Assembly (NCBI GenBank): GCA_021163265.1
Contig: JAGGXC010000015.1
Span: 1-48,212 of the forward strand
Source of the DNA: a bacterium
Lineage (GTDB): Bacteria > Patescibacteriota > Minisyncoccia > Minisyncoccales > JAGGXC01
DNA: 48,212 bases
Reading direction: 5' to 3'
Shown in pieces: positions 1,078-26,713 of this stretch. The position numbers and the translations under genes were made by a program. The notes under the pieces were generated by a model. The model was not told where the DNA came from. It ran no database searches and was given only the letters and a program-made list of their open reading frames with translations. How positions within the stretch are numbered: the first letter of the stretch is position 1; each line of letters begins with the position of its first letter.

Positions 1078-1082
1078 ATTAT

Positions 1083-1604: not shown

Positions 1605-1614
1605 AATTTACAAT

Positions 1615-2160: not shown

Positions 2161-2172
2161 TTACATAATTCT

Positions 2173-2520
2173 ATGGCAATTACAATTGTTGAACAGAGAA
2201 AAACTCAGAAACATTTAGTTATTGTGCTTGGTATTGCACTTGCAGGAATTTTATTTATCCTTCTTGCTAAATTTGTAAAGATTGAAGAAATTCCTGTTCC
2301 TTCTCTTCCTTCTCCCCGTCTTCCCAAGATTGAGATTAATTTCGATGTTTTAGAAAATCCTACATTGAAAGAGTTGACGGAACCATTTCCTGAACTTCCT
2401 TCTTTGTCTTCTGTGGATATAGATCAATGCTTTGGACGAGAAAATCCTTTTCAGGAGATGGGATGGGGAGAATTTAGAGAGATGTATAGTTCTGGTGAAG
2501 AAGGAGAGATTAATGAATAA
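2173..2520 (+). CDS. Small single-TM protein in the pilP position
   Basis: N-terminal TM, Pro-rich linker, FGRENPF motif reminiscent of PilP/GspC; position after pilO. Confidence 0.55.
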   Translation: MAITIVEQRKTQKHLVIVLGIALAGILFILLAKFVKIEEIPVPSLPSPRLPKIEINFDVLENPTLKELTEPFPELPSLSSVDIDQCFGRENPFQEMGWGEFREMYSSGEEGEINE

Positions 2521-2591
2521 TAGGAGTAAGCTAGGATAATTTTGAAAAGAAGAGATTTATATTCTTTGTGTAATAACTAATTTTTTGTGAA

Positions 2592-4319: not shown

Positions 4320-4336
4320 TTATGATGATATAAATT

Positions 4337-4720
4337 ATGAAAAAGATACTCCTTGTTGAAGATGATCCATTTCTTATAGATATATATAAAACAAAATTAA
4401 AACAAGAGGGATTTCAAGTAGAAGTGGCAAAAGATGGAGAGAGCGCTCTTAATTTGTTAGAAGAAAAGTCTCCGGATTTGTTGTTGCTCGATATAGTGAT
4501 ACCTCATGTAGATGGATGGGAAATTTTAAAATGGATAAGATCAAAAGAAAAGTTTAAGAATCTGAAAGTTATTGTTCTCTCTAATTTAGGGCAAAAAGAA
4601 GAAGTCAAAAAAGGGATGGAATTGGGGGCTACTAAATATCTTATTAAGGCTCACTATACGCCGACTGAAATAGTAAAAGAAATAAAAAAGGTATTGAAGG
4701 AAAATAACAATCAGAAATAA
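4337..4720 (+). CDS. CheY-like single-domain response regulator
   Basis: KKILLVEDDPFLIDIYKTKL, LLLLDIVIPHVDGWEIL, VIVLSNLG, TKYLIKAHYTP; no output domain. Confidence 0.93.
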   Translation: MKKILLVEDDPFLIDIYKTKLKQEGFQVEVAKDGESALNLLEEKSPDLLLLDIVIPHVDGWEILKWIRSKEKFKNLKVIVLSNLGQKEEVKKGMELGATKYLIKAHYTPTEIVKEIKKVLKENNNQK

Positions 4721-4732
4721 AATAATAAAAAT

Positions 4733-5818
4733 ATGTCTTCCTCTAAAGAAGAATATTACAAAGATCTCATTGCTGAGCTTTTGTTGCTTACTATTAAAGC
4801 TCAGGCTTCAGATCTTCATCTTTCTCCTACTCATCCACCGATGCTAAGGATAGCAGGTCAGTTATCTCCTTTACTTAAGAAAAGAAAGCTCAAGCCAGAA
4901 GATACTCAAGGTCTTGCTTTTGCTTTGATGACAGAAGGAGAGAAAGAAAGATTTTTGAAGAAAAAAGATATTGATTTTTCTTATGATTTTGAAGGCCAAG
5001 CTCGCTTTAGAGTGAATATATTTCAGCAAGCTAGAGGAATTAGTGTGGCATTACGTCTAATTCCTAACAAAATTAGAACTATAGAGGAGCTTAATTTGCC
5101 TCCTGTTTTACATCAGTTCACAACTCCTACTCAGGGGTTTGTTTTGATTACCGGCCCCAGTAGTCATGGGAAATCTACTACGATGGCAGCTTTGATTGAT
5201 GAGATAAATCATACCCGTACTGATCACATAATTACTATTGAAGATCCTATTGAATATGTTTTTGAAGATGATAAATGTATTATTGATCAAAGAGAGGTTT
5301 ACCAGCATGCTTTAAGTTTTGCGCGTGCTCTTCGTGCTACATTCCGTCAGGATCCCGATGTGATTATGATAGGAGAAATGAGAGATCCTGAGACTATCTC
5401 TACCGCTATTACTGCTGCAGAAACCGGTCATTTGGTGTTTGCTACTCTCCATACTAATTCGGCTGCTCAAACTATTCACCGAATTATAGACAGCTTTCCT
5501 TCAAGTCAGCAGAATCAAGTAAGAAGTCAGCTGTCTGCTTCTTTGCTTGGAGTTATTTCTCAAAGATTGCTTCCTTGTTTGAAAGGAGGATTGATTCCTG
5601 CATGTGAAGTAATGTTTGCAACACCTGCTGTGGCCAGTTTGATTAGAGAAAATAAGATTCATGAATTGCCTTTAGTGATTGAGACATCGGCTGAGCAAGG
5701 AATGATTTCTTTAAATAAATCCCTTGCCGATTTAGTGAGAAGAGGAGAAGTTTCTGTGAAAAATGCTCTTAATTATTCTTTGGCTCCAAAAGAACTCAGA
5801 AGCTTAATTAGAAAATAG
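4733..5818 (+). CDS. pilT: Type IV pilus retraction ATPase PilT
   Basis: ASDLHLSPTHPP, Walker A GPSSHGKSTT, EDPIEYVF, GEMRDPETISTAITAAETGHLVFATLHTNSAAQTI. Confidence 0.95.
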   Translation: MSSSKEEYYKDLIAELLLLTIKAQASDLHLSPTHPPMLRIAGQLSPLLKKRKLKPEDTQGLAFALMTEGEKERFLKKKDIDFSYDFEGQARFRVNIFQQARGISVALRLIPNKIRTIEELNLPPVLHQFTTPTQGFVLITGPSSHGKSTTMAALIDEINHTRTDHIITIEDPIEYVFEDDKCIIDQREVYQHALSFARALRATFRQDPDVIMIGEMRDPETISTAITAAETGHLVFATLHTNSAAQTIHRIIDSFPSSQQNQVRSQLSASLLGVISQRLLPCLKGGLIPACEVMFATPAVASLIRENKIHELPLVIETSAEQGMISLNKSLADLVRRGEVSVKNALNYSLAPKELRSLIRK

Positions 5819-5824
5819 TAGGGT

Positions 5825-7033
5825 ATGAAGTTTAATTATCAAGCAAGAACAAAAACAGGCCAAGTCCAGGTAGGAACGGTAGAAGCTGCTTCCAGGGAAG
5901 GAGCTTTGATGCTTCTTCAAAAACATGATTTGTATGTTACTAAACTAGAATCGGCCGAAGAAGTTCCTTTTTATGCAAGAAAACTGGAACTGAAAAGAAT
6001 TACCAAAAGTGATTTAGTAATGTTTTCGCGTCAGCTTTCTATAATGTTTGAATCAAAAGTTCCGTTGATTGAGTCATTGCGGACTTTGGCTGAACAGCAG
6101 ACTAGTTCTCGGTTCAAAGAAATACTTTTAGATATCTCAGAGAAAGTAGAAGGAGGAATTCCTTTTTCTCAAGCCCTTTCCGCATACCCTAACTTATTTG
6201 ACCCTTTTTTTGTGAATATGGTCAGATCTGGAGAAGCTTCTGGAAAGCTTTCCGAAACGCTGTCTTATCTTGCCGATCATATAGAAAGAGAGTATGAGCT
6301 TACATCAAAGATAAGAGGAGCAATGATTTACCCTATTATAATTATTACAATGATGTTGTTTATCGGAATCTTGATGTCAATATATGCTCTCCCTGGGCTT
6401 CTTGAGCTTCTTCAAGAAACACACCAAGAATTACCCTTTTTTACGCGAATAATTATTGCTGTAATCAATTTTGTTAAAAGCTGGATGGGCGTTGCTACAT
6501 TTATAGGATTTATAGTGGCAGTTGCCCTTTTGTTTAAATATACAAAAACCAGCGAAGGAAAGGATAGACTAGATAGGCTTTTGCTTAAGATTCCAGTGAT
6601 TAATAGTTTTCTTAAGATGGTGTATGTTGCACGTTTTACCGAGAACCTTTCTACTTTAATTGCAGGGGGTTTGCCGATTGCAAAAGCTTTAATAATCACA
6701 GGGAGTGTAGTAGGTAATGTGCGTTATCAAGAGGCTCTTGAAAAGGTCACAGAAGAGGTGAGAAAAGGAGAAAAAATATCTTCCGGACTCAAAAAATTTC
6801 CTGATCTTTTTCCTCCTATCTTAACTACTATGGTTCTAGTAGGGGAAAAAACAGGAAGTTTAGATACAACTCTTTTGAATATAGTTAGATTCTATCGTAT
6901 GGAGATAGATCGGAGATTAAATAATCTTTTGAAAATAATTGAACCAGCGTTAATTTTGATCTTGGGGGTGGGCGTAGGAATATTTATTGCTTCTATTTTG
7001 CTTCCTCTTTATCAAGCAATTACCTCAATTTAG
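5825..7033 (+). CDS. pilC: Type IV pilus inner-membrane platform protein PilC (GspF family)
   Basis: [25 protein letters not shown]...[21 protein letters not shown]...[18 protein letters not shown]2SF architecture. Confidence 0.95.
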
Positions 7034-11089: not shown

Positions 11090-13126
11090 ATGACCCGCCA
11101 GGAGGCGAAAAAAAGAATAGAAAAATTAAAAAAGGTGATTAATTATCACCGTTATTTATACCATGTCTTGGATAGAGAAGAGATTTCTCCTGAGGCATTG
11201 GATTCACTGAAGCACGAGCTTTATCTTTTGGAACAGCAATACCCTGATTTAATTACTCCGGATTCTCCAACTCAGCGGATTGGGGGGAAACCTTTAGAGA
11301 AGTTTGAGAAAGTTTATCATTCTGTTCCTATGCTTTCAATCGAGGATGTCTTTTCCGAAGAAGAACTTCGTCACTGGGAAGATTACTTAAAGAAATTGGT
11401 TCCTTCTGAAAAAATTGATTTTTTCTGCGAACTTAAAATTGATGGCTTTGCTATAACATTGATTTATAAAAATGGCATCTTGTTTAAAGGTGCTACTCGA
11501 GGTGATGGAAAAATAGGAGAAGATGTTACCCAAAACTTAAAAACCATTGAAAGTATTCCTCTTTCGCTCTTTTTACACCATCCTTTACCTTCGGATATGA
11601 AGCAAATTGAGGAAAGGTTAAAAAAGCTAATCAAGAAAGGAGAGATTGAAATAAGAGGAGAGGTGTATATGACCAAAAAAGATTTTGAAAACTTTAATAA
11701 AGAAAGAAAGAAAAAAGGAGAGCCTACTTTTTCAAACCCTCGCAATTTAGCAGCAGGTTCTATTAGGCAACTTGATCCGAAACTTGCTGCCTCACGTCCT
11801 CTGAAATTCTTAGCTTATGATTTAGTGACTGATGTTGGCCAAATTACCCATTCTCAAGAGCACAAAATTCTTCCAGCTTTGGGTTTTAGAACTGATCCAG
11901 GAAGAGAATGCAAGAATATAGATGAAATTATCGATTTTTGGAGAGAAATAAGCAAAAAGAGAGATACACTTCCGTTTCAAATAGATGGAATAGTAGTTAA
12001 TGTTAATAATAATGCTCTTTTTAAGAAATTAGGAGTGGCAGGCAAGAGTCCTCGCGGCGTAAGGGCTCTAAAGTTTTCTCCTCAACAAGCAACAACGAGA
12101 ATTTTAGATATTAGAGTGCAGATAGGAAGAACAGGAGCAGTTACTCCTATTGCTTATCTTAAACCAGTAAAAGTGGGTGGAGTAACTATTACGCGTGCTA
12201 CTTTACACAATGAGGATCAAATAAGAAAATTAGGGGTTAAAATTGGAGATACAGTAATTGTGGAGAGAGCAGGAGATGTAATACCAGCTGTAGTGAAAGT
12301 TTTTCCGGAATTAAGAGATGGTACAGAGAGGGAATTTAGAATGCCTCGCGCCTGTCCTGTTTGTGGTGCAAAACTAATAAGACCAAAGGATGAAGCAGTA
12401 TGGCGCTGTCCGAATTATAATTGTCCGGCAAGAAAGAGAAGATTTCTTTATCATTTTGTTTCAAAAAAGGCTTTTGATATAGAAGGTCTTGGTCCAAAAA
12501 TTATTGACCAATTAGTTGAAGAGAATTTGATTTCTCAGCCATCAGACATTTTTACTCTTAAAGAAGGCGATTTAATACCTTTAGAAAGATTTGCTGAGAA
12601 ATCAGCTAAAAACATTGTTGAAGCAATTCAAAGAAGCAAAAAAATTCCGCTGTCTCGGTTTATATATAGTCTGGGTATTCGTCACGTAGGAGAGGAAACG
12701 GCAATTGATTTGGCTCAATATTTTGGCAGCATCGACAACTTGAAAAAAGCTACCAAAGAAGAATTAGAAAAGATACCCGATATTGGTCCTGAGGTTGCTG
12801 AGAGTATTTATAATTTCTTTTCATCAAAAAGAAATCTTAAATTAATTGACAATCTTTTAAAGGCAGGGGTAGAAATTATTCCTCCTCCAAAAATTGGAAA
12901 GAAACTTAAAGGTAAAACTTTTGTGTTAACAGGAACTTTAAGTAGTTTTACAAGAGCAGAAGCAGAGAAAAAGATAAGGTTGTTAGGAGGGCATCCTTCG
13001 AGTTCTGTTTCGAAACAAACTGATTTTTTGGTTGTTGGTAAAAATCCAGGTTCAAAACTCAAAAAAGCTAAAGAATTAGGAGTTAAGATTATAGACGAAA
13101 ACGAATTCCTCAAGTTAATAAAATAA
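11090..13126 (+). CDS. ligA: NAD-dependent DNA ligase LigA
   Basis: ELKIDGFAITLIYKNG, Zn finger CPVC...CPNYNC, HhH repeats, C-terminal BRCT (GKTFVLTGTLSSFTRAEAEKKI). Confidence 0.98.
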   Translation: MTRQEAKKRIEKLKKVINYHRYLYHVLDREEISPEALDSLKHELYLLEQQYPDLITPDSPTQRIGGKPLEKFEKVYHSVPMLSIEDVFSEEELRHWEDYLKKLVPSEKIDFFCELKIDGFAITLIYKNGILFKGATRGDGKIGEDVTQNLKTIESIPLSLFLHHPLPSDMKQIEERLKKLIKKGEIEIRGEVYMTKKDFENFNKERKKKGEPTFSNPRNLAAGSIRQLDPKLAASRPLKFLAYDLVTDVGQITHSQEHKILPALGFRTDPGRECKNIDEIIDFWREISKKRDTLPFQIDGIVVNVNNNALFKKLGVAGKSPRGVRALKFSPQQATTRILDIRVQIGRTGAVTPIAYLKPVKVGGVTITRATLHNEDQIRKLGVKIGDTVIVERAGDVIPAVVKVFPELRDGTEREFRMPRACPVCGAKLIRPKDEAVWRCPNYNCPARKRRFLYHFVSKKAFDIEGLGPKIIDQLVEENLISQPSDIFTLKEGDLIPLERFAEKSAKNIVEAIQRSKKIPLSRFIYSLGIRHVGEETAIDLAQYFGSIDNLKKATKEELEKIPDIGPEVAESIYNFFSSKRNLKLIDNLLKAGVEIIPPPKIGKKLKGKTFVLTGTLSSFTRAEAEKKIRLLGGHPSSSVSKQTDFLVVGKNPGSKLKKAKELGVKIIDENEFLKLIK

Positions 13127-13131
13127 TTTTT

Positions 13132-14229
13132 ATGATTTTCTCCAGAGTTGCAAGCCACTTCAAAAAATTTGATTGGGTTCTTTTAGGAGCTATTTTTTTG
13201 TTAGTGATTTTTGGGCTTATCTCGATTTGGAGCAGTTCCTGTGCTAAGGGAGATTTCTTTAATTTTAAAAAGCAGATATTATTTTTGGCAATCGGGATTC
13301 TTTTGATGATTTTTGTAAGTTTTCTTGATATTCTTTCTTTAAAAAACAATCCATATTTGATTCTGTTTTTGTATTTTATATCCATTTTTTTATTAATCGG
13401 CCTTTTTTTTGTCCCTCAAATTAGAGGAGTAAGAGGTTGGTACAAAGTAGGTGCTTTTTCTTTTGATCCTATTGAGGTAGTAAAAATTATTTTAGTGATT
13501 CTTTTGGCAAAATATTTTTCAATGCGGCATATAGAAATGTATAGATTACAGCATATTGTCCTTTCAGGAATTTACGTATTTATTCCTTCTGTATTAATAT
13601 TTTTTCAACCCGATCTTGGGTCTGTTTTAGTTTTGCTTTTTCTCTGGATCGCGATTCTTGTGATTTCTGGAATTAAACTTCGTCAATTTCTTCTTTTGTG
13701 TTTTGTTTTTATAGTATTAGGAGTAATAGGATGGTTTTTTCTTTTGCAAGATTATCAAAGAGCACGAATTTCTGCTTTTTTAAATCCTCGAATTGAACCT
13801 CTTGGAGCAGGTTGGTCTCAAAGACAATCAAAGATTGCTATAGGCTCAGGGGGTTTTTGGGGAAAAGGTATTACAAAAGGTTCTCAAACTCAATATGGGT
13901 TTTTGCCGGAACCACAGACCGATTTTATTTTTGCAAGCATAGCAGAGGAAACAGGAATTGTAGGTATTGGTATTTTATTAACTCTTTATTTAGTTGTTGT
14001 TTTTAGGATAATAAAGATTGCGTCTCTTGCGAGAAATAATTTTTTTCGGCTTTTTGCCTCTGGTTTTGCTGCTGTATTAGTATCTCAGATATTTATTCAT
14101 ATTGGTATGAACTTAGGGATATTGCCTATTATTGGTATTCCTTTGCCTTTTGTTAGTTATGGAGGCTCAGGATTGATAGCTAATTTTGTCAGTTTGGGAA
14201 TAATTCAAAACATTAAATCTCGAGAATAA
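13132..14229 (+). CDS. rodA: Rod-shape determining protein RodA (SEDS family)
   Basis: GVRGWYKVGAFSFDPIEVVKI, QPDLGS, GFLPEPQTDFIFASIAEETG, PLPFVSYGGSGL. Confidence 0.92.
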   Translation: MIFSRVASHFKKFDWVLLGAIFLLVIFGLISIWSSSCAKGDFFNFKKQILFLAIGILLMIFVSFLDILSLKNNPYLILFLYFISIFLLIGLFFVPQIRGVRGWYKVGAFSFDPIEVVKIILVILLAKYFSMRHIEMYRLQHIVLSGIYVFIPSVLIFFQPDLGSVLVLLFLWIAILVISGIKLRQFLLLCFVFIVLGVIGWFFLLQDYQRARISAFLNPRIEPLGAGWSQRQSKIAIGSGGFWGKGITKGSQTQYGFLPEPQTDFIFASIAEETGIVGIGILLTLYLVVVFRIIKIASLARNNFFRLFASGFAAVLVSQIFIHIGMNLGILPIIGIPLPFVSYGGSGLIANFVSLGIIQNIKSRE

Positions 14230-14327: not shown

Positions 14328-14356
14328 GATATCTTGGATATCCGATATCAGATATG
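14328..14356. repeat. Four consecutive GATAT(C/G) units ending on the start codon of the HTH gene
   Basis: GATATCTTG GATATCC GATATCA GATATG. Confidence 0.9.
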
Positions 14357-15187
14357 ATCAAGAAAAGCAAAAAGTTATATAAAAAAACAGGTTATATCTC
14401 TCTTAGAGAAGCAGCAAAATATTGTCCTTATTCGCAAGAGTACTTATCGCTAAGGGCTCGACAAGGTAAGCTAAAAGCAGTAAAGATTGGAAGAAATTGG
14501 GTGACAACAAAAGAGTGGGTAGAGGATTATCTTCGAAGGTTTAATAATGTTGGAAAAAAAGAAATTGAACCAGAGAAAATATCTTTATATCAGGGATTGC
14601 CTGAATCTTATTCCTTTGAAGAATCTGAAGAGAAAAAGGTCATAAAACATTTGTTATTTCTCGGGATTACTACAGTAATTCTGTCAATAAGTTTAATCTT
14701 TTTGGCTGCCTTTTCTCGGAATACCTACGACGTCAATAGCTATGCTCTAGAAGGAGATATAAATATAATATCAGAAGAAACATTTTCTTCTCTAACTTTT
14801 AGTGATCTTAAATGCTCTTTGATAAAAAACTTCAAAGATTATAAGGATTGGCTAAAAAAGAAGGTTAGCGATGTGTTTGTCGTTTTAAATCATAAATATA
14901 TTGGTTTGAAAGAAAGGTTTTCAAGTCTATCTCTAAGGAGTTTATTTAAAAAGAGGATTCCTTCAGAAACAGTAAAAATATCTGAAACAGCAGTTCAAGA
15001 AGAGATGGGAGTTGTGATATTTCCTCATTCTTTAGAGGCAAAAGCAAAAGAGCAAATAGCAAACGCTTTCTCTGATAAAGTGAAAATAGAACCGCAAGAC
15101 GAAAATTCAGGTATTATTGTTCCTATCTTTAAAAGCAAAGAAGAGCAGAAATATTTTTATATTATGGTACCAGTTAAAGAACAATGA
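14354..15187 (+). CDS. Membrane-anchored helix-turn-helix (excisionase/MerR-like) protein
   Basis: N-terminus YISLREAAKYCPYSQEYLSLRARQGKLKAVKIGRNWVTTKEWVEDYLRRF; single TM HLLFLGITTVILSISLIFLAAFS; extracytoplasmic C-terminal part. Confidence 0.75.
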   Translation: MIKKSKKLYKKTGYISLREAAKYCPYSQEYLSLRARQGKLKAVKIGRNWVTTKEWVEDYLRRFNNVGKKEIEPEKISLYQGLPESYSFEESEEKKVIKHLLFLGITTVILSISLIFLAAFSRNTYDVNSYALEGDINIISEETFSSLTFSDLKCSLIKNFKDYKDWLKKKVSDVFVVLNHKYIGLKERFSSLSLRSLFKKRIPSETVKISETAVQEEMGVVIFPHSLEAKAKEQIANAFSDKVKIEPQDENSGIIVPIFKSKEEQKYFYIMVPVKEQ

Positions 15188-16578
15188 TGTTTATTTTTGA
15201 TAAAAAAAATAATGTTGTTTTTTCTGTAGTTTTTCTTGGGGTGCTTTTTTTGACACTTGGTTTTGGTATTGTGAGAGCCCAGAATTATTCAAATCTAAGA
15301 ATATTTTATCAAGGCACTTTAGCAACTTCTGAAGGAGAGCCGGTAGAAGACGGACGATATAATATGAGATTTTTAATTTACGATGCGCAAGAAGGAGGAA
15401 ATATTATCTGGCAAGAAGAACATTCTTTTTACGATGCTGTATTTGTTAGAGGAGGGAAGTTTCAGGTGATTTTGGGAAGAAAAAATCCAATAAACCTTGA
15501 TTTTGATAAGGGACCTTTTTGGTTAGGCACGATGATAGGAGAAGAAACAGAAACAGGAGATATTGTCTGGAATATAGGAAAAGAACCGCGCAAAGAAATT
15601 GTTTCTCTTTCGCAGGTTCTGGAAGAAGAGTTTTCTTCTCAAAAATTAGAAGATCTTTCTCAGATAATAAAAGATAAAATAGGCAGCCAACCTAATACAG
15701 TAGTGGTGTTTAGTTTAGAGGAGCTTGAAAAAATGAAAGGCAAAAATACTACAACCTCTGGCATTTCTCTGGGAATCTTCCAGAATTTTATAAATTTTAT
15801 AACCGACAAATTATCATTTATTGTTGAAGAACTCTCGAAAATAGGAGAAAAACTCGATGCTATTTTTTCAAAGTTAAGCGAAATTGCCAGTTCAATTGTT
15901 GAGATGGGAAATAAAATAGATATTTTATACAAAGTGCTGATTATAGATAAAGGACTTGTGCCAAAAGAGGAAATTAAACCTTCTTCTCAAGGGTCAGAAA
16001 ATATTATTTATACAAAAAAGAAGGTTGAGAATCTTATCTTGAAAGGAGGAGAAAGATCAGTAAAGATAATCAATAATTCTATTAAATCTGATAGTTTGAT
16101 TTTTGTGAGTTTTCTTGATGATCCTGGCAGTGCTTGGTGGATTTCTGAGAAACAAAACGGGTATTTTATTCTCTCCCTGAAAGATCCTGCGCCTTCAGAT
16201 TTGCAATTCAGTTATTGGATATTAAACAAAAAAGAATCTCAAGAAGAAAAATTGCCAGAGGTCGGAGAAAATAATACTTTAGAAATTCCTGAATTAACTC
16301 CCTCAGAAATTCCAGCCAAAGAAAACACTTCTTCTGCAAGCACTTCTCAAAACGGTACTAGTTCAGAAATTAATACCAATGAGAGAGAGAATATTCAAGA
16401 AAACAATTCGACCTCAGGAGTTAATCAGCAAAACCAACAAGACCAACAAGATCAAGAGAATCAGGAAAATAATTCTTTCCAGTCAGCGACAGAAACTACT
16501 GGTATTCTTGATACCTCTTCTGATACAAGTTCTCAAACTTCTTCTTCTTCTTCTCAAACTTCTTCTTCGCAGAAATGA
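15184..16578 (+). CDS. Exported protein with N-terminal surface/fiber-like domain, coiled coil and Q/N/S/T-rich tail
   Basis: Signal-like N-terminus; FYQGTLATSEGEPVEDGRYNMRFLIYDAQEGGNIIWQEEHSF; low-complexity QQNQQDQQDQENQENN...SSQTSSSSSQTSSSQK; ATGA overlap with the upstream gene. Confidence 0.7.
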   Translation: MMFIFDKKNNVVFSVVFLGVLFLTLGFGIVRAQNYSNLRIFYQGTLATSEGEPVEDGRYNMRFLIYDAQEGGNIIWQEEHSFYDAVFVRGGKFQVILGRKNPINLDFDKGPFWLGTMIGEETETGDIVWNIGKEPRKEIVSLSQVLEEEFSSQKLEDLSQIIKDKIGSQPNTVVVFSLEELEKMKGKNTTTSGISLGIFQNFINFITDKLSFIVEELSKIGEKLDAIFSKLSEIASSIVEMGNKIDILYKVLIIDKGLVPKEEIKPSSQGSENIIYTKKKVENLILKGGERSVKIINNSIKSDSLIFVSFLDDPGSAWWISEKQNGYFILSLKDPAPSDLQFSYWILNKKESQEEKLPEVGENNTLEIPELTPSEIPAKENTSSASTSQNGTSSEINTNERENIQENNSTSGVNQQNQQDQQDQENQENNSFQSATETTGILDTSSDTSSQTSSSSSQTSSSQK

Positions 16579-16588
16579 TTTTAATAAA

Positions 16589-19500
16589 ATGAATCCAAAG
16601 AACTCTTTTTTAACTCTTTCTTTCAAAAAGATTGAGACATTATTACTGCTTGTCGTTGCAGGAATCTTTGTTTTTGCAATACAGGCCAACAGCGAGTATA
16701 GGATGATAAGTCCTGATATAGAACTTCAGACTATTTCTTATCCTCAAAAGATCTCTGTCTCTTTGAAAGAAAACAGCAAGGAGACAATTGAAGGAGAGGC
16801 AGAAATTACAGATCCTTATTTAATTCGTTTTTCTGGCAATGAGTTTTTAGAAAGGAATATATCTTTTCAAACAGGCTTCAATGGTTTGGATATATCAATA
16901 GAAACAGATAAACCGCTATTCAAAAAAGAAAATTTTTATCAGAGACAGTCTTTTTCTGAAAAGTTTAGAAAGTTTGTTGGAGGTAAAACACTTCCTCAAT
17001 TTCGATTAATAAAAAGCATTACTTCAAGAGAAGATGGCTTTGGAGAAATTATTCATTTCGCCGGTCTCGATTTTAATATCTCTTATGTGAGAGAAGAAAA
17101 ATTAAAAGAGAAAGATATAAAACAGATTGTTTCTCTAAAAAACAAAACTTCCGAACCCTTGCTTGTTTCTCTTGTTTTTAAAAACAAGATAAAAGCAGAT
17201 AAAGTATATTGGGGAGGTAGACGTCATTTTTTTTCTCCTCTGCCAGAAAAAGTCTCTCCGTTTTCATTGGTTGAATTTTATGGAGATGACAAAACTCATA
17301 CTATTGGCTATGATATTTCAGATATTTCTTCCAGCAAACATCCTCAAATGTGGATTCAAAGAGAGGGTTCAGATAATCTTTTAATACTTTCGGTCGATAT
17401 TTATCTTCCTCCTCAATCGTCAGATCAATTCTCTGGTGTTTACAAACTTACTGCTCTTCCTTTAGCGGCTGACGAAGATTCAGGATTTGTTGTAGAAAGA
17501 GGTGCTACTTGGAACAGTTATTACAATCCAATGACAAAAAAATTTATATATAAAGTAACCACATCTCCTTTAAATTACAGAGATAAAAAAGGAGAGTGGA
17601 AACCTATTAATCTTTCAATCAAAGAATTGGAATCGCCGTATTGTTTTGGCGTTTCTTGTTATAATTACGGGCTGGAAGAAAATTACTTCAAAACATATTT
17701 CAATGCCAAAGGAGAAGTTCTTTCTTTCAACCCCGACGGTTATTGGATGAAAACAACAATTGTGGATCTGGATATATACGATCCTTTAATAAAAGGATTT
17801 TATTCTATATCGAAAGGCACTTTCAATTTTTCTCCTCGTATTTCAAAATCCCATTTTAGTTATCCTGGCATTTATAAATCTTTGGAAGGCAAAAGTCACC
17901 GTCTGAATTACGACATTAATTCTTCTTCTGTTATTGAGGAATACATTATAGAAACAAGAGATTCTCTTCCTTCTTTTGAAGAATTTTCAGAAGAGCAGAT
18001 TAATAATATGTATCTTGGCGTAGTTTCTGCTTTTGAAATAGATGATAGTCTTCAAATAGAATTAGTTTATAAACATAGAAGCAAAGAAATCTGGAATAGA
18101 AACTTGGGTGAGCGTAGAGATATAGAATCTATTAATTTTTATTCGCAAGATGGCAATCTTCAGTTTAGAATCGAAGAAGCCTTTGCTACTGACGAAAATG
18201 GAGAGCGTATACCTGTTTCTTATATGATTGATTACAATAAAGGAAAATATATTATTCGCAAAATGGTTCCTTTATCCTGGCTTCTTGATTCAAAGAGAGC
18301 TTATCCAATAGTTATTGATCCAACAGCAAGTTATTATGCTGGTTCTGGTGATGGATATGTTGCGCATTCAGCTTCTACTTGGAGTGCTGTTCATGATGCT
18401 GGCACAGGTACTCAAGCAAATTCTACAGCTTCAAGTTATAACGATGGTTTATCAGTGGGGTATAACGGAATCAATCGTACTTATAATATAGCTCGTTCTT
18501 TTTTTCCTTTTGATACTTCTGGTCTTCCTGATGATTCTGTAGTGGTTTCCGCTTCTTTATATGTTTATGGAAGATATAGCGAAATTCCGGTTCCTCCCGG
18601 TTCCGACGTTTCTGCTCAAAAAGGTACACAAGGAACTAGTTTAACTACTGATGACTATGATGCTTTTTCTGGATCAACTTATGGAACAACGAGTTGGAGT
18701 AATGACGGTTACAATACAATTAGCTTTAATTCTACTGGTAGATCCGATATTAATAAAACCGGTACTACTTATATTTGTTGTCGTGAGTACTCACATGATT
18801 ATTTAAATGTATCGCCAGGGTCCCATATTTATCACAATGGCGTTTGTTATTCAGAATACACAGGGACTAGTAATGATCCTTATCTATATATAACCTATGA
18901 CAATCCACCTCAGGTAGGTACAATCACTCTCAATGGAGGCAACCCCATTACTTTAATTGAAAATTCAACTACTTCAGTAGTAGCGACCGCTACTGTGTCA
19001 GACGCTGATGGGTATTCAGATATTGGGAAGTATGGCGGTAAGTTATATCGTTCAGGTGTAGGATCAAGCTGTTCTTGGAATGATAATAATTGTTATAAGG
19101 GTTCTTGTTCTTTAAGTTCTTGTGCAGGAACAAGTTGTATTTTGACTTGCAATTTTAAGCTTTGGTTTCATGCTGATCCTACTGATTCCGGAACCTGGGC
19201 ATCTGAGTGGTGGGAAGTAAAATTAGATGTACTGGATAGTTATAATATTGAAGATTCAGGCACTACCTCCCAGGAACTTAATTCTCTGCAGGCATTAAGC
19301 GTTTCGCCATCGAGCTTCGATTATGGCACTCTTAATCCCGGAGAAAATACAGGTACTTTAAACCAGACTACCACTATTACTAATACAGGCAATATTGCCA
19401 TAGATGCTTATATTTACGGTACAGATTTAACAAGCGGTTCAGATAATATTCCTATAAGCTATCAAGAATATTCCACTTCTTCAGGAGTAAGTTATGGGTC

Positions 19501-19672
19501 TGGTGTTGATGCTACTAGTTCTTCAAGTAACCTGGTTGAACTTGATCTTTCCAAACCCACTTCCCATCCTTCTAATTCAACTGATGATGTTTATTGGGGA
19601 TTAGAGATTCCTATACCTCAGCCCGCAGGAAATTATTCAGGAACTATTACTTTTTCGGCTACAAATGATTGA
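16589..19672 (+). CDS. Large exported surface protein (about 1027 aa) with DNRLRE/CBM-like and C-terminal Cys-containing beta modules
   Basis: Start set to ATG 16589 (MNPKNSFLTLSFKKIETLLLLVVAGIFVFAIQANS), because the ORF-track N-terminus from 16379 is an alternate reading of the upstream gene; SYYAGSGDGYVAHSASTWSAVHDA...ARSFFPFDTSGLPDDSVVVSASLYVYG. Confidence 0.75.
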   Translation: MNPKNSFLTLSFKKIETLLLLVVAGIFVFAIQANSEYRMISPDIELQTISYPQKISVSLKENSKETIEGEAEITDPYLIRFSGNEFLERNISFQTGFNGLDISIETDKPLFKKENFYQRQSFSEKFRKFVGGKTLPQFRLIKSITSREDGFGEIIHFAGLDFNISYVREEKLKEKDIKQIVSLKNKTSEPLLVSLVFKNKIKADKVYWGGRRHFFSPLPEKVSPFSLVEFYGDDKTHTIGYDISDISSSKHPQMWIQREGSDNLLILSVDIYLPPQSSDQFSGVYKLTALPLAADEDSGFVVERGATWNSYYNPMTKKFIYKVTTSPLNYRDKKGEWKPINLSIKELESPYCFGVSCYNYGLEENYFKTYFNAKGEVLSFNPDGYWMKTTIVDLDIYDPLIKGFYSISKGTFNFSPRISKSHFSYPGIYKSLEGKSHRLNYDINSSSVIEEYIIETRDSLPSFEEFSEEQINNMYLGVVSAFEIDDSLQIELVYKHRSKEIWNRNLGERRDIESINFYSQDGNLQFRIEEAFATDENGERIPVSYMIDYNKGKYIIRKMVPLSWLLDSKRAYPIVIDPTASYYAGSGDGYVAHSASTWSAVHDAGTGTQANSTASSYNDGLSVGYNGINRTYNIARSFFPFDTSGLPDDSVVVSASLYVYGRYSEIPVPPGSDVSAQKGTQGTSLTTDDYDAFSGSTYGTTSWSNDGYNTISFNSTGRSDINKTGTTYICCREYSHDYLNVSPGSHIYHNGVCYSEYTGTSNDPYLYITYDNPPQVGTITLNGGNPITLIENSTTSVVATATVSDADGYSDIGKYGGKLYRSGVGSSCSWNDNNCYKGSCSLSSCAGTSCILTCNFKLWFHADPTDSGTWASEWWEVKLDVLDSYNIEDSGTTSQELNSLQALSVSPSSFDYGTLNPGENTGTLNQTTTITNTGNIAIDAYIYGTDLTSGSDNIPISYQEYSTSSGVSYGSGVDATSSSSNLVELDLSKPTSHPSNSTDDVYWGLEIPIPQPAGNYSGTITFSATND
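18901..19669 (+). repeat. Copy A of a duplicated secreted module (protein-level repeat)
   Basis: PPQVGTITLNGGNPITLIENSTTSV...DDVYWGLEIPIPQPAGNYSGTITFSA aligns with copy B in the next ORF. Confidence 0.88.
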
Positions 19673-19718
19673 GGAGTTTTCCACAATATATTATATTCTG
19701 CAGAAATTCAAAAAATAT

Positions 19719-19726
19719 GTTATAAT
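19719..19726 (+). promoter_or_regulatory. Putative extended -10 promoter for the 19786 gene
   Basis: TG-T-TATAAT in a 113-bp intergenic region, about 60 nt upstream of the ATG. Confidence 0.45.
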
Positions 19727-19785
19727 AAATAAAAATATTAATTTAATATAGGAAATAAACTAATAACACAGAAACTGCAGAAATT

Positions 19786-20694
19786 ATGTCTCCTCAAACA
19801 AAAATTTCTCTTTCTTGGTTGGTGGTATTTTTGATGTATGGTGTAATAGCTATAGGGGCTACAATTATTTTGAAAGATGTGTTAGCAGATACAATTCAGT
19901 CATCTGTTACTGTAGGTAATGAACCTCCTACAGTAGGAACAGTAATTCTGAATGGAGGTAATGATATTGTACTTGCAGAAAACACTACTGTTACCGTGAT
20001 AGGCACTACTACCGTAACTGACGGTAATGGTTATAACGATATTACAGCAGTTACTTCTACGCTTTATCTTAACAATACCACCTGTTCTAGCGGTCTGGCT
20101 GATCCCAATTGGTGTTATTATATAAGCAGTTGTGCTACAAGTAACTGTTCAGGAAGCAGTTGTGATGTAACCTGTTCAGCAAATGTATGGTTTATTGCAG
20201 AACCTACATCGCCAACCACTTCTTATCCATCCGCTGATTGGCAGATGGATATTACCGTAGTAGACAGCGGTAACAACACTGATACCGGAACAACAAGTCA
20301 AGAATTATTGACTCTTTATGCTTTGGATGTAGATGGTTCGATTAGTTATGGAACTATTTATCCTGGAGGGACAAGCACAGAGCAGTTAACTCATGCCACT
20401 AATACTGGGAATTATCAAATAGATGTAGCGCTATCAGGTGTAGATATGGATGATGGATCGGGACATACGATTGCCGTGGGTCAGCAGAAATATTCGAGTT
20501 CTTCGAATATGGGAGATTGGGTAGGTACTGCGTTAACTACCACAGCTTCTCCATATAATCTTGATTTACCGAAACCAACTGCTACTACTTCAAACAGCTA
20601 CGATGATCTTTACTGGATGATTAAGATTCCTGATCCCCAATACCCTGGTACTTACACTGGAACTAATACAATAAGCGCTATAGACGCAATATAA
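19786..20694 (+). CDS. Secreted protein consisting mostly of copy B of the duplicated module
   Basis: Signal/TM N-terminus, then PPTVGTVILNGGNDIVLAENTTVTV...DDLYWMIKIPDPQYPGTYTGTNTISA. Confidence 0.8.
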   Translation: MSPQTKISLSWLVVFLMYGVIAIGATIILKDVLADTIQSSVTVGNEPPTVGTVILNGGNDIVLAENTTVTVIGTTTVTDGNGYNDITAVTSTLYLNNTTCSSGLADPNWCYYISSCATSNCSGSSCDVTCSANVWFIAEPTSPTTSYPSADWQMDITVVDSGNNTDTGTTSQELLTLYALDVDGSISYGTIYPGGTSTEQLTHATNTGNYQIDVALSGVDMDDGSGHTIAVGQQKYSSSSNMGDWVGTALTTTASPYNLDLPKPTATTSNSYDDLYWMIKIPDPQYPGTYTGTNTISAIDAI

Positions 20695-20707
20695 ATTGTA
20701 AAGAGAA

Positions 20708-21628
20708 ATGAAGAAAACTCTTCTAATTATTTCGATCTTGCTTTTTTGTCTGTTTGGCTTTGTTAATTGGAGCAATGCGGGATTTGGTATTACTCCTCCT
20801 GATATTATTAATGAACATCTTGTTCCAGGTTCTTCTTTTGAAGAAACTATTTATTTAACAAGAGGAGATCCTGATGAGGAATTGACTGCCCAAGTTATTA
20901 TCAACGATTCTCCGATAAAGGATTGGATAACCATTGAGAAAGGCGAAAGATTTCCTTTGCCTAAAGGTAAGAAAATCGTTCCGATGAAAGTGTTGATTAA
21001 TGTTCCTTCAGGTGCTGAGTACGGTAAATATAAAGGAACAATCACAATAAAAGCTGTTCCCTCAAAAAACAAAGGAGGGCAGGTTTCTACTATTTTAGCA
21101 GGAACGGTAGATATTGAACTTCTAGTTACTCAGGAAACCTTTTCAGATTTTAAAGTTAAAATCATAAGTATTCCTTCGGAAATCGAACAGAACAGTCCAT
21201 TAGTTATTTCGATCAAATTAGAGAATTTAGGTAATCAGAAAACCAGACCTTCAAAAGTCCATTTAGATATATATGATCTTTATCATAAAAAAATCTTAAA
21301 ATCTGAAGATGTCTATCAATTCAAAGGATGGGTTGAACCTTTTCAAACTGGAATTGTTGAAGCTCAATCTTTGCTTGATTTAGATTTAGGAGAGTATTGG
21401 GCAGATATTTCAGTTTATAAGGGAGAAGAAAAAGTAGATTTTGCCAAGGTGTATTTCAAAATAGTTCCTCAAGGATCAAAACCTGTTTCTAAAATGCGGA
21501 GGTCGTTGTTTTCGTATTTCCCTCCTACTTTAGTTGAATTTATTTCTTTATTGATAGTCTTGATCATTGGTATAATAATTGCTTTGCTTCTAAGAAAAAA
21601 GCCAAGAAAAAGGAAAAGAAAGATCTAA
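20708..21628 (+). CDS. Membrane-anchored Ig-like protein, DUF916/WxL-interacting-protein-like
   Basis: Signal peptide, GFGITPPDIINEHLVPGSSFEETIYL...YGKYKGTITIKA, C-terminal TM and basic tail RKKPRKRKRKI. Confidence 0.6.
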   Translation: MKKTLLIISILLFCLFGFVNWSNAGFGITPPDIINEHLVPGSSFEETIYLTRGDPDEELTAQVIINDSPIKDWITIEKGERFPLPKGKKIVPMKVLINVPSGAEYGKYKGTITIKAVPSKNKGGQVSTILAGTVDIELLVTQETFSDFKVKIISIPSEIEQNSPLVISIKLENLGNQKTRPSKVHLDIYDLYHKKILKSEDVYQFKGWVEPFQTGIVEAQSLLDLDLGEYWADISVYKGEEKVDFAKVYFKIVPQGSKPVSKMRRSLFSYFPPTLVEFISLLIVLIIGIIIALLLRKKPRKRKRKI

Positions 21629-21662
21629 AATCGAGGGAAGACCTTTTTAAAAAATATTTTAC

Positions 21663-23276
21663 GTGAATGCAGATATTAAAATTCCTCAGATTGTATTAAA
21701 ATCTGTTTTCTCCTTCCTTTTTTTAGGAGTAACTTTAATATTGCTCTTTTCTTTTTTTTCTGAAACTCTAAGGGTACCCAATTTTTTGAAGCAAGTTTTG
21801 GCTTTAACTATAACTCCCTCTGTTACTACTGTTTCTTTACCTCCTCCTCAAAACCTTTCAGTTACTGCTGTAAGTTCTTCTCAGATTGATTTAACTTGGG
21901 ATTTGGTTGCTGGAGCAAGTTATTATAATATCTACAGAGATAATAATCTTGTCGCATCTTCTACAGTTTCTTCTTATTCTGATACGGGTCTGTCTCCTTC
22001 TACTACTTATACATACAATGTTTCTGCCGTGGATGTTTCAGGTATGGAATCACCCAAAAGTTCTTCTGTTTCAGCCACCACCTTATCAGCTCCTGCACCT
22101 CCTCCTTCAGAAGAAGGAGGAGGTGCTCTTCCACTTATTCCTCCAACCCCTGAGGTTTCTGAAAAGTCTATAGTGATTAATAAAGGAGCAACGTGGACAA
22201 ATTCTCGAGAGGTTTCCTTGACAATTTCGGCTAAACAGGCATATCAAATGGCAATTAGCAATAGTATTGATTTCCCGGGTGGGATTTGGGAGGATTACAC
22301 TACTTCAAAGAAATGGATACTAACTGAAGGTGATGGCAAAAAAACTGTTTATGCTAAATTCAGAAGTTTTTCGGGAGGCGTCTCTGAGATAGTGTCGGAT
22401 TCCATTATTTTAGATACTATGCCTCCCGCTAATATCCTAAATTTAGAAGCAATTCCTGGCAACCAGCAGATTCTTCTTAAATGGGAAGCGCCTCCTGATA
22501 AAGATTTCGCTGGAGTAAGAATAATGGGATCTTTAGAATTCTTTCCTGCTAATCCTTGGGATGGAATTTTAGTATATCAAGGATCAAAAACATCATTTCT
22601 TGCTGTAGGACTTACTAATGGAAAAAGATATTATTATACTGTCTTCTCTTACGATAAAGCAGGAAATTTTTCATCTGGAGCAATAGTTTCAGCAGTTCCT
22701 TTAAAGGAAGAGATTCCTCCAATTACTCCTGTTCCTCCAATTATTCCTTCCACTCCAATTCCTTCCCCTTTTCCTCCTACTTCTGTGGCACCTATACCGT
22801 CCGGGATTGAGGAACTGGAACTCTCTGATTTTGACTTCTGGCAAGAGGGTAAGAAAATTATTCCTCAACACAACAAAGTTGTTATCAGAAACGACCTTTT
22901 ACTAACTATTTCTATTGATTACGAGAAAGTGCCAGAAGTTTTGAAGACTATAATGATTACTTTAAGAAAAGAAGATAAATCTTTCTCTTTTCTCTTGAGA
23001 TTGAATAAACAGTCCACTCGTTATGAGGCGACAATTGTACCTCCAAACAAAACCGGCGAGATGCCATTTATAATTGAAGTTCTTGATTATAGAAATCAGA
23101 GTTTTAAGAAAATTTCTGGTTCTTTTGAATTAATAGCTCCAAAAGAAGAGATCAAAAAATATAAAAAAATAGATCTTTCGTTTTTAGTTTGGTTGGTGGT
23201 TCTTCTAATCATTTTAGTTTTGCTTACATACTATATATGGAAAAAATATATATCTTCAGGAAACTTTACTCTTTAA
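21663..23276 (+). CDS. Fibronectin type III domain surface protein with Pro-rich linkers and C-terminal TM
   Basis: GTG start; Fn3 PPPQNLSVTAVSSSQIDLTWDLVAGASYYNIYRDNNLVASSTVSSYSDTGLSPSTTYTYNVSAVD; INKGATWTNSREVSLTISA module; C-terminal TM. Confidence 0.8.
   Translation: MNADIKIPQIVLKSVFSFLFLGVTLILLFSFFSETLRVPNFLKQVLALTITPSVTTVSLPPPQNLSVTAVSSSQIDLTWDLVAGASYYNIYRDNNLVASSTVSSYSDTGLSPSTTYTYNVSAVDVSGMESPKSSSVSATTLSAPAPPPSEEGGGALPLIPPTPEVSEKSIVINKGATWTNSREVSLTISAKQAYQMAISNSIDFPGGIWEDYTTSKKWILTEGDGKKTVYAKFRSFSGGVSEIVSDSIILDTMPPANILNLEAIPGNQQILLKWEAPPDKDFAGVRIMGSLEFFPANPWDGILVYQGSKTSFLAVGLTNGKRYYYTVFSYDKAGNFSSGAIVSAVPLKEEIPPITPVPPIIPSTPIPSPFPPTSVAPIPSGIEELELSDFDFWQEGKKIIPQHNKVVIRNDLLLTISIDYEKVPEVLKTIMITLRKEDKSFSFLLRLNKQSTRYEATIVPPNKTGEMPFIIEVLDYRNQSFKKISGSFELIAPKEEIKKYKKIDLSFLVWLVVLLIILVLLTYYIWKKYISSGNFTL
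22095..22126. repeat. Perfect 14-bp inverted repeat within a coding linker
   Basis: GCACCTCCTCCTTC-AGAA-GAAGGAGGAGGTGC, encoding APPPSEEGGGA. Confidence 0.95.
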
Positions 23277-23500: not shown

Positions 23501-26500
23501 ATGGAGAAAATAAAATTTAAGAATTTCTCAAAAGCAAAAGTCCGTTTAGATCTCCCGTATTTACTTGCTATACAAAAGGATAGCTGGAAATGGTTTTTAG
23601 AAAAAGGATTAAAAGAGCTTTTTGTTGAAGTATCTCCTATAAGAGATTTTACGGGGAAAGAATTGGAATTGTGGTTTTTAGACTACAAGCTTGGGAAGCC
23701 AAAGTATAAATCAGATATAGAAGCAAAGCTTAATAATGATTCTTATGAGGCTCCCCTGAGAGCAAAGGTAAAGCTTGTAAACTTAAAAACAAAAGAAGAA
23801 AAAACTCAGGAAGTATTTTTGAGCGACTTCCCTCTTTTAACCGAAAGAGGAACTTTTATTGTTAATGGAGTGGAGAGGATAGTTATTTCTCAACTTATTC
23901 GCTCTCCTGGTGCTTTTTTTGTTCTTTCGGGAACAAAAGAGGATAAAAAATTATTTGGTGCCAAGATTATTCCTAATAGAGGGAGTTGGTTAGAATTTGA
24001 TACCGAGCATTCAGGAGTGATTTCAGTAAAAATAGACAGGAAACGAAAAATTCCTGCCACTGCTCTTCTGAGAGCTTTTGGAATAGAAGAGGATAAAAAA
24101 ATCAAAGAGCTATTTGAAGATGTAGATAAAGGAGAGAAAAAGTTTATTGAGGAAACTTTACGTCAAGATTTTACTCATAATAGAGAAGAAGCTTTAGTTG
24201 AAATTTATAAACATCTGCGACCTGGAGATATGGCTATGCCTGATACAGCAAGAGAGTTGCTGGAGAATATGTTTTTTAATTTTGATAGATATGACTTATC
24301 GAAGGTAGGAAGATGGAAGATGAGACAAAGGATTCCTGAGTTGCAAAAAGACAAAGATAAAAGCATTGGTATTAAAGATAGAACTCTTAAAGTGGAAGAT
24401 ATAGTTGCGGTGATGCGAGAGATTATCCGTTTAAATAACGATCCTCAAGCAAAACCTGATCAGATAGATCATTTAGGTAACAGGAGAGTCAGAACATTAG
24501 GTGAATTTTTGCAAAATCGGCTAAGGGTAGGAATAATGAGGATGGAGAGGATTATTCAGAACAAAATGTCTACTTTGGACACTCGCACACTTACTCCTAT
24601 TCAGCTTATAAATCCTCGTCCTTTTATGGCGGTAGTTAAAGAATTTTTTAGTTCCTCTCAGTTTTCTCAATTTATGGATAACGAGAATCCATTGGCTGAG
24701 TTGGAACATAAAAGAAGGTTATCTGCTACAGGTCCCGGAGGCTTGACAAGAGAGAGGGCCGGATTTGAGGTAAGAGATGTTCAGCCTTCTCATTATGGAA
24801 GAATTTGTCCTATTCAAACCCCTGAAGGACCAAATATTGGTTTGGTAAACCATTTGGCTGGTTATGCTCGGATTAATTCTTTTGGATTTATAGAAACACC
24901 ATATTTTAAAGTAAAGGATGGTAAGGTTACTTCTGAAATTCACTATCTTTTAGCTTTTGAAGAAGAAAAATATAATATTGCTCACGGAGGAGTTCCAATT
25001 GATGATAATGGTCGAATTATACCCAAAAAGGTTGAGGCACGTCGGAGAGGAGAACCGGCCGTGGTGGAGAGAGAAAAAATTGATTTCATTGATGTTTCTC
25101 CTGAGCAACCAATTTCTATTGCTACTTCTCTTATTCCTTTTCTCCAAAACGATGATGCAAACCGAGCTTTAATGGGATCAAATATGCAGCGGCAAGCTGT
25201 TCCTTTGATTAATCCTCAAATGCCCTTAGTAATGACTGGAGTTGAGAGAAGAGTAGCTCTGGACTCTGGGCAAGAGCTTATAGCTAGTGAAGATGGTGTA
25301 GTAGAAGAAGTAGATGCTAATCATATTAAGATTAAAACAAAATCAGGCTCCTATAAGAATTATGAATTGAGGGTATTTATGCGAAGCAATCAATATACTT
25401 GTTTTCATCAGCGTCCAGTTGTAAAAAAGGGGCAGAAAGTCAAAAAAGGGGATATTCTAGCAGATGGAGGAGCTATTGATAAAGGACACCTTGCTTTAGG
25501 AAGTAATGTATTAGTTGCTTTCTTGCCTTTCTATGGTGAGAATTTTGAAGATGCTATAGTAATTTCTGACAGGTTAGTCAAAGAAGATGTTTATTCTTCT
25601 ATTCATATAGAGAACTTTAGTTGTGACGTAAGAGAAACAAAACTTGGCCCAGAGATTACTACCTATGATATTCCTAATGTAGGAGAAGAAAAACTAAAGG
25701 ATTTAGACGAAGAAGGTATTGTGAGGGTAGGAGCTGAGGTTGGACCAAATGATATCTTAGTAGGCAAGATTTCTCCAAAAGGAAAAGAAACACTTACAGC
25801 AGAGGAAAGGTTGCTGAGTGCAATCTTTGGTGAAAAAGCAAAAGATGTTAAGGATACCTCGCTTCGGATGGAACACGGAAAAAGAGGAAGAGTAGTAAGA
25901 GTAAAAGTTTTTGAAAGAGGTGAAGCCAATCTTGAACCAGGGGTTATTAAAAGGGTAGAAGTAGAAGTAGCTCAGCTAAGAAAAATTACTTCTGGTGATA
26001 AGCTGGCTGGACGTCATGGAAACAAAGGAGTAGTTTCCAAGGTGCTTCCTCCAGAAGAGATGCCTTTCTTGGAAGATGGTACTCCTGTTGATATCATTTT
26101 GAGTCCTTTGAGTGTTGTGTCAAGAATGAATTTGGGGCAGATTTTGGAAACCCATCTTGGGTGGGCAGCAAAGAAATTAGGATATCATGCTATTACTCCT
26201 GCTCTTACAGGAGCAACTGAAGTAGATATTAAAAAAGAATTAAGAGAGGCAGGTTTAGATGAAGACGGTAAAGTAGTTCTTTATGATGGTCAGACAGGAG
26301 AGCCTTATCCTGAAAAAATAACTGTTGGTTGGATCTATATGATGAAGCTTATTCATATGGTTGAAGACAAAGTTCATATGAGAGCAATTGGTCCTTATTC
26401 TTTAATTACTCAACAACCGTTGGGAGGTAAAGCTCAGTTCGGAGGACAAAGATTCGGAGAGATGGAGGTTTGGGCGCTTGAAGGTTATGGTGCTGCATAT

Positions 26501-26713
26501 TCTTTGCAGGAAATGCTTACTATAAAGTCAGACGATGTAGGAGGAAGAGCGGCAGCTTATGAGGCAATTCTTAAAGGTGAAAAGATATCTACTCCTAATC
26601 TTCCTGCTTCGTTTAATCTGCTAGTAAACGAGCTAAAATCATTAGCTTTAGGGGTAGAGATTAAAACAAAACAAACAAAAGAAATTGCAGAGAACAAAAA
26701 AATTAAAAAATAA
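23501..26713 (+). CDS. rpoB: DNA-directed RNA polymerase subunit beta
   Basis: RPFMAVVKEFFSSSQFSQFMDNENPLAELEHKRRLSATGPGGLTRERAGFEVRDVQPSHYGRICPIQTPEGPNIGL. Confidence 0.99.
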   Translation: MEKIKFKNFSKAKVRLDLPYLLAIQKDSWKWFLEKGLKELFVEVSPIRDFTGKELELWFLDYKLGKPKYKSDIEAKLNNDSYEAPLRAKVKLVNLKTKEEKTQEVFLSDFPLLTERGTFIVNGVERIVISQLIRSPGAFFVLSGTKEDKKLFGAKIIPNRGSWLEFDTEHSGVISVKIDRKRKIPATALLRAFGIEEDKKIKELFEDVDKGEKKFIEETLRQDFTHNREEALVEIYKHLRPGDMAMPDTARELLENMFFNFDRYDLSKVGRWKMRQRIPELQKDKDKSIGIKDRTLKVEDIVAVMREIIRLNNDPQAKPDQIDHLGNRRVRTLGEFLQNRLRVGIMRMERIIQNKMSTLDTRTLTPIQLINPRPFMAVVKEFFSSSQFSQFMDNENPLAELEHKRRLSATGPGGLTRERAGFEVRDVQPSHYGRICPIQTPEGPNIGLVNHLAGYARINSFGFIETPYFKVKDGKVTSEIHYLLAFEEEKYNIAHGGVPIDDNGRIIPKKVEARRRGEPAVVEREKIDFIDVSPEQPISIATSLIPFLQNDDANRALMGSNMQRQAVPLINPQMPLVMTGVERRVALDSGQELIASEDGVVEEVDANHIKIKTKSGSYKNYELRVFMRSNQYTCFHQRPVVKKGQKVKKGDILADGGAIDKGHLALGSNVLVAFLPFYGENFEDAIVISDRLVKEDVYSSIHIENFSCDVRETKLGPEITTYDIPNVGEEKLKDLDEEGIVRVGAEVGPNDILVGKISPKGKETLTAEERLLSAIFGEKAKDVKDTSLRMEHGKRGRVVRVKVFERGEANLEPGVIKRVEVEVAQLRKITSGDKLAGRHGNKGVVSKVLPPEEMPFLEDGTPVDIILSPLSVVSRMNLGQILETHLGWAAKKLGYHAITPALTGATEVDIKKELREAGLDEDGKVVLYDGQTGEPYPEKITVGWIYMMKLIHMVEDKVHMRAIGPYSLITQQPLGGKAQFGGQRFGEMEVWALEGYGAAYSLQEMLTIKSDDVGGRAAAYEAILKGEKISTPNLPASFNLLVNELKSLALGVEIKTKQTKEIAENKKIKK

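Follow-up and report, generated by a model that had tools for sequence, protein, structure and literature searches.

P1, a membrane-anchored helix-turn-helix (HTH) protein, is probably a bitopic autoregulator of its own gene and of the surface operon behind it, P2 to P6, whose products would form a surface assembly built on P5. This reading comes from sequence comparison across the order to which the genome belongs, where conserved sites upstream of HTH genes change in step with the HTH. The pattern suggests that these surface proteins switch their own genes.

The window, a 48,212-nucleotide stretch of DNA, corresponds to contig C22 in a genome of 674 kb. The features discussed below are as follows.

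11090..13126, + strand: ligA (Pfam), conserved in synteny upstream of the HTH-TM gene
13132..14229, + strand: rodA, elongation glycosyltransferase, upstream of P1 (TIGR02210, 343.6 bits versus a cut-off of 336.7)
14339-14347, + strand: candidate operator A, TATCCGATA, the sole intergenic exact match in its own genome
14346-14354, + strand: one-mismatch copy, TATCAGATA, overlapping the TATCCGATA site and reaching into the P1 start codon
14354..15187, + strand: P1, membrane-anchored HTH protein, 277 aa (HTH_17, one TM)
14387-14542, + strand: P1 HTH, residues 12-63 (HTH_17 match)
14654-14710, + strand: P1 TM, residues about 101-119 (hydropathy)
14993-15181, + strand: P1 conserved C-terminal domain, residues 214-276, seen solely together with the HTH
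15184..16578, + strand: P2, secreted, 464 aa, Q/N/S-rich C-terminus (weak MAT-fibre N-terminal domain match)
16589..19672, + strand: P3, exported surface protein, 1027 aa (raw ORF starts at 16379)
19786..20694, + strand: P4, exported two-domain beta protein, 302 aa, paralog of the P3 C-terminal module
20708..21628, + strand: P5, two-Ig-domain protein with a C-terminal TM, 306 aa (WxLIP-like fold)
21663..23276, + strand: P6, fn3 surface protein with a C-terminal TM, 537 aa (fn3, 48.6 bits)
23501..26713, + strand: rpoB (Pfam), downstream boundary of P1-P6

Gene order around P1

The initial annotation had described six co-oriented genes, and all six ORFs were found on the positive strand between ligA-rodA and rpoB. 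The intergenic gaps are -4, 10, 113, 13, and 34 bases; a separate promoter could lie in the 113-base gap between P3 and P4. By hydropathy, P1 has a single internal TM near residue 101, P2 to P6 each begin with a signal or anchor helix, and P5 and P6 have C-terminal TMs at residues 275 and 507, respectively. Gene calls here and in the comparisons below were mechanical, and the genomes are metagenome-assembled, a few contigs bearing other-phylum labels and being probably mis-binned. At the start of the window, pilM, genes for two T2SSE ATPases, and T2SSF form a type IV pilus operon.

Conserved synteny, expected at annotation, was found. The order ligA-rodA-P1-P2-P3-P4-P5-P6-rpoB is intact in G002, and in G001 the same ligA-to-rpoB order is spread over two contigs. 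The rpoB gene is also downstream in G002 (L040), G012 (L076), and G064 (L120). A gene for a P4/P3-type module lies directly 5' of a P5 homolog in G054, G021, G058, G039, G071, and G042, with two copies of the pair in G071 and three in G042; altogether, module-P5 adjacency occurs in at least eight genomes. More widely, HTH-TM and P5-like genes occur in common loci across several families.

The HTH-TM family and its candidate operators

P1 has the layout of a membrane-bound one-component regulator: a DNA-binding domain and a single TM, with the N-terminus inside and positively charged residues flanking the TM on its N-terminal side. Its HTH matches HTH_17 with an E value of 2e-4, under the Pfam cut-off, which a P1 relative passes (31.4 versus 27 bits). 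A sequence search of solved structures with the HTH returned ankyrin matches alone, which were spurious. P1-type HTHs were found in 43 of the 80 genomes of the order, with a mean identity of 70% in an alignment of 18 loci, and the named contigs that bear its closest HTH relatives come chiefly from Nealsonbacteria, Wildermuthbacteria, Portnoybacteria, and other Parcubacteria. The HTH is almost always followed by one TM after 25 to 60 residues, and across the order the membrane-anchored proteins that begin with it are about 110 to 5,400 aa long. Their outside parts range from a few tens to more than 5,000 residues, some carrying fibre or adhesin domains (Peptidase_S74, collagen repeats, phage spike fibre). 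Proteins sharing the 62-residue C-terminal domain of P1 are encoded at about 12 distinct loci, and the HTH is present in every case.

ToxR and CadC are membrane-bound one-component regulators in which a cytoplasmic DNA-binding domain, one TM, and an extracytoplasmic part form a single chain. P1 has the same three-part layout; however, it carries an excisionase/MerR-like HTH_17 rather than the OmpR-type winged helix of ToxR and CadC. Further differences are that the outside part of many P1 relatives is a giant protein, 1000-5400 aa long, of the fibre or surface type, and that each P1-family gene has its own operator.

We searched the 350 bases before the HTH for shared sites. A palindrome, TATCSGATA (operator A), was among the top enriched words, and its 8-base core, ATCCGATA, ranked first. 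In the discovery set, exact copies were present in 19 of 39 HTH-gene upstream regions versus 3 of 192 other upstream regions, and copies with at most one mismatch in 33 of 39 versus 17 of 192, the background including intra-operon positions. On new contigs, kept apart from the discovery set by their length and in some cases from genomes related to it, the exact motif was found in 31 of 56 regions versus 10 of 236 (p 3.7e-18) and the one-mismatch motif in 47 of 56 versus 22 of 236 (p 3.3e-28); a reversed-motif control gave 0/56 exact matches. The HTH-gene upstream regions are otherwise unalignable (0.607 versus 0.600 for shuffled sequences), and the number and position of sites vary between loci.

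The rodA gene directly precedes the HTH-TM gene in 46 of the 72 loci with enough upstream sequence, and RodZ, like P1, has an HTH-TM-outside layout. P1 might thus be a RodZ-like scaffold whose HTH binds the elongation machinery (MreB/RodA) and ties surface proteins to wall growth. We consider this very unlikely. P1 carries HTH_17, not the HTH_25 of RodZ, and the single HTH_25 match in its own genome is sub-threshold and lies on C14. Moreover, at 26 of the 72 loci rodA is absent from the 1.5 kb upstream of the HTH gene, and yet operator A precedes 20 of 24 HTH genes without an upstream rodA. The presence of the motif depends on the HTH gene rather than on rodA: it was found in 12/12 regions where rodA is followed by an HTH gene, as opposed to 2/18 where rodA stands without one. 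A scaffold would also leave unexplained both the tie of the P1 family to operators and the variation of those operators with the recognition helix, described next.

The HTHs fall into two subfamilies with different recognition helices, marked by SQEYLSLRARQGKLKA (A) and DYIGYLIRxGKIxGKK (B). The B-type HTH is often doubled and heads proteins of 1,100-5,400 aa. Just past the -10 region of B genes lies a different, 15-bp palindrome, TCTCGRnnnYCGAGA (operator B), which may also function as a small hairpin in RNA; neither the leaders of HTH genes nor the window locus gave an Rfam family above threshold. Allowing one mismatch, operator B was found at 11 of 12 discovery loci, at all 6 new B-type genes, and in none of 193 background regions. 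The two operators separate with the two helices. Operator B occurs at 17/18 B genes, a small sample, versus 0/99 A genes (p 1.5e-19), and operator A at 80/99 A genes versus 4/18 B genes (p 2.5e-6), with 19 of the 99 A genes having no operator A. Three genomes (G012, G018, and G051) hold both HTH types, and in each of them every such gene has its matching operator. That the operators track the recognition helix argues strongly, on computational grounds, for binding of the HTH to its own promoter. This double dissociation, correlative as it is, is the strongest argument for the HTH itself reading the site, and inheritance could account for some of the association, since the HTH lies in cis to its promoter.

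Inherited linkage could even be the whole explanation, with the palindromes bound by other regulators of surface genes and the HTH serving a separate role. A few TATCCGATA sites do occur at genes without an HTH (e.g., L131 and L262), and the same promoters contain another conserved element, the TTATCCACA box described below. Nevertheless, this explanation is unlikely: A and B genes within one genome carry operators matching their own HTH type, rodA regions lacking an HTH gene seldom have the motif, and the variable number and position of sites suggest that they turn over under selection instead of being frozen by ancestry.

The initial annotation had placed a membrane-tethered regulator in the cluster and linked it to surface sensing. 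Covariation of operators with HTH type supports the regulator; sensing of surface load or state, or of host contact, through the TM would, we infer, be its natural function. The reach of P1 may be short. Its genome contains seven exact TATCCGATA matches, of which the one at P1 is intergenic and the remaining six all lie within coding sequence, so that a wide trans regulon in this genome was rejected. Since few trans sites were found, the regulon may be the gene itself alone.

Surface genes and their known relatives

P3 and P4 share a module: the last 255 residues of P3 (18899-19663) are 47% identical to P4, which is modeled as two beta-sandwich domains (pLDDT 77). Residues 611-716 of P3 have a weak DNRLRE-type match. 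The AlphaFold model of P5 comprises two Ig-like domains and a C-terminal helix (pLDDT 83). After P1-type genes in L151, L153, L181, L222, L092, and L100 come genes for an exported protein of ~215 aa, a P5-type protein, and a P6-type protein, sometimes with a MAT-fibre-type gene in addition. P6 homologs adjoin P5 homologs in L092, L153, L181, and L053.

An analogy to the WxL/WxLIP (Csc) complexes of Gram-positive bacteria had been drawn at annotation, and it holds in part. Those clusters encode small and large exported proteins with a common C-terminal domain (PMC10599100), much as P3 and P4 are large and small module proteins adjoining a two-Ig protein with a C-terminal TM. The predicted structural similarity of P5 to WxLIP was found at the level of fold. 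In a Foldseek search of the PDB, crystal structures of Enterococcus faecium WxLIP (9i25_C, 9i1y) ranked 5, 7, and 8, with E values of 4e-9 to 1.2e-8 and 15-16% identity, alongside many other two-Ig proteins; because TM-scores were low (0.30-0.36), the likeness is one of fold. WxLIP_PGBD (PF06030) had no match over cut-off for P5 or elsewhere in its genome, and the P5 homolog in L181 reached 18.9 bits versus a cut-off of 27.3 (E 0.0016). The part of the analogy that failed is P4 as a WxL domain, which is characterized by two W-x-L motifs: neither P3 nor P4 has a WxL match in Pfam or NCBIfam, and Foldseek aligned P4 to generic Ig-like and beta-sandwich folds, RbmA first. In contrast to WxL/WxLIP clusters, P1-P6 also includes fibre-like, fn3, and HTH-TM genes.

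P2 weakly resembles Bdellovibrio mosaic adhesive trimer (MAT) fibres in their N-terminal domain (NF053851, E 3.3e-4, under the cut-off). Homologs of P2 are present in G001 and G002; in L181, L222, L101, and L053 they take the form of genes that carry MATN. The likeness to MAT fibres consists of these MATN genes in related loci and the weak match in P2, which covers the N-terminal domain and falls under the cut-off.

Another known system close to the operon is the Pam pilus of CPR bacteria (NF058579, NF058581), whose pilin genes are flanked by P1-, P5-, and P6-type genes in related genomes. In L092 (G043), a P1-type gene on one side and P5/P6-type genes on the other enclose a gene that passes the NCBIfam Pam_pilin_C cut-off (152 versus 55 bits), and PamT-like and pilin-like genes fill the same slots in L153, L181, and L053. 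In the window's genome, by contrast, the P3/P4 modules occupy the pilin slot. It is therefore possible, though well short of an even chance, that the structural genes are a divergent Patescibacteria Pam-pilus operon in which P3/P4 replaced the pilins and P1 is a dedicated regulator. Against this, the window's genome yielded no over-cut-off match to PamT or Pam_pilin_C, hhalign gave the P4 C-terminal module a probability of 0.3% as a Pam-pilin homolog, and no Pam model matched P5. Such an origin does not contradict the regulatory role proposed for P1.

The system had initially been put forward as a candidate undescribed one, which now applies only in part. Its structural side is not wholly undescribed because Pam-pilus subunits in related operons are known to NCBIfam. 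The open-licence papers searched contained no account of the Pam pilus or of an HTH-headed surface protein family, which is weak evidence of novelty. We consider the initial observation real and read P1 as a variant of the membrane-bound one-component regulator, coupled to a Pam/WxL-like surface operon.

Proposed circuit and a shared promoter element

We propose that the cytoplasmic HTH of P1 recognizes a short palindromic site within the promoter region of its own gene. A single TM helix would anchor P1, leaving its small conserved C-terminal domain outside; in P1 relatives, a giant surface protein or fibre protein would make up the entire outside part. Most likely P1 autoregulates, its targets being the gene headed by the HTH and, in the window, P2-P6 behind it. 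Control by P1 is more likely to be repression, given that the sites cover or adjoin the promoter and, in the window, reach into the start codon. At the surface, the WxLIP-like two-Ig protein P5 would hold the exported beta-module proteins P3 (large) and P4 (small), with the fibre-like P2 and the fn3 protein P6 as presumed partners in the assembly.

For the attachment surface of host-dependent Patescibacteria, a candidate regulator family, two candidate operators, and their putative target surface genes are now defined from uncultured lineages. The candidate operator DNA, GATATCCGATATC, and the 75-residue P1 HTH are small enough for in vitro work, and the pairing of each HTH subfamily with an operator of its own offers a natural specificity swap. 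If the proposal is true, adhesins that double as transcription factors would form a very short sensing circuit. We put forward a broader version tentatively, at somewhat less than an even chance: in one Patescibacteria order, surface fibres may be their own transcription factors, the cytoplasmic HTH of giant adhesins reading its own promoter, fibre amount or contact feeding back, and the promoters sharing a DnaA-box-like element with mraZ.

When promoters were aligned on the TTATCCACA box, TTATCCACA or TTTTCCACA was often found 17-19 bases before TTGACA in both A and B promoters. This element is present at 50/99 A and 15/18 B genes, and TTATCCACA in 3/192 and 2/236 background upstream regions; the P1 promoter of the window has no exact copy. 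The TTATCCACA word is identical to the DnaA-box consensus. Five genomes (L257-L261) also have pairs of TTATCCACA immediately ahead of mraZ.

Operator A at other genes

The sole other exact copy of the operator A sequence (TATCCGATA) in genome G001 was intergenic (L131:3029; G001:C2:4728), flanked by genes for an ECF sigma factor and a DUF5667 membrane protein, the latter followed by a large surface protein. In G007, operator A and the DnaA-box-like promoter element TTATCCACA were found 5' of a gene encoding a 753-aa exported protein that lacks an HTH (L262:2362-2601, contig C4); the gene is a possible trans target. A B-type giant gene of G046 is preceded by three exact operator A copies within 75 bases (L106, 5' of 5347; G046:C7:5622-5693) and also has a perfect operator B, an arrangement that might allow cross-regulation.

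Promoter elements, leaders and gaps

Five genomes (L257-L261; e.g., L257:2278 and 2372) carry pairs of TTATCCACA directly 5' of mraZ, which opens the cell-division cluster. The element is common to mraZ upstream regions and the HTH-TM surface genes, where it lies 5' of the -35 box.

Leaders of HTH-TM genes at five loci (L075, L078, L080, L110 and L119) contain terminator-like inverted repeats, AAGAAGGC...GCCTTCTT, followed by T-rich sequence; these repeats had no match in Rfam. The 113-base gap between surface genes P3 and P4 (window 19673-19785) contains TTTTCCACA and TATAAT-like words, and could be an internal promoter.

Gene neighborhoods and other HTH contexts

Positions 16-7033 of the window, 5' of ligA-rodA, hold an operon for a type IV pilus (pilM, two T2SSE, T2SSF).

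Prepilin-like genes likewise precede ligA in L177, L211 and L212.

The P1-type HTH was also C-terminal in proteins of ~310-330 aa without a TM (L091:3328-4320, L094:10068-11006, L095:5161-6105). It occurred, too, on contigs labelled Woesearchaeota, Omnitrophota, Burkholderiales or Aenigmarchaeota (L184, L186, L197, L210, L217), which are probably mis-binned.
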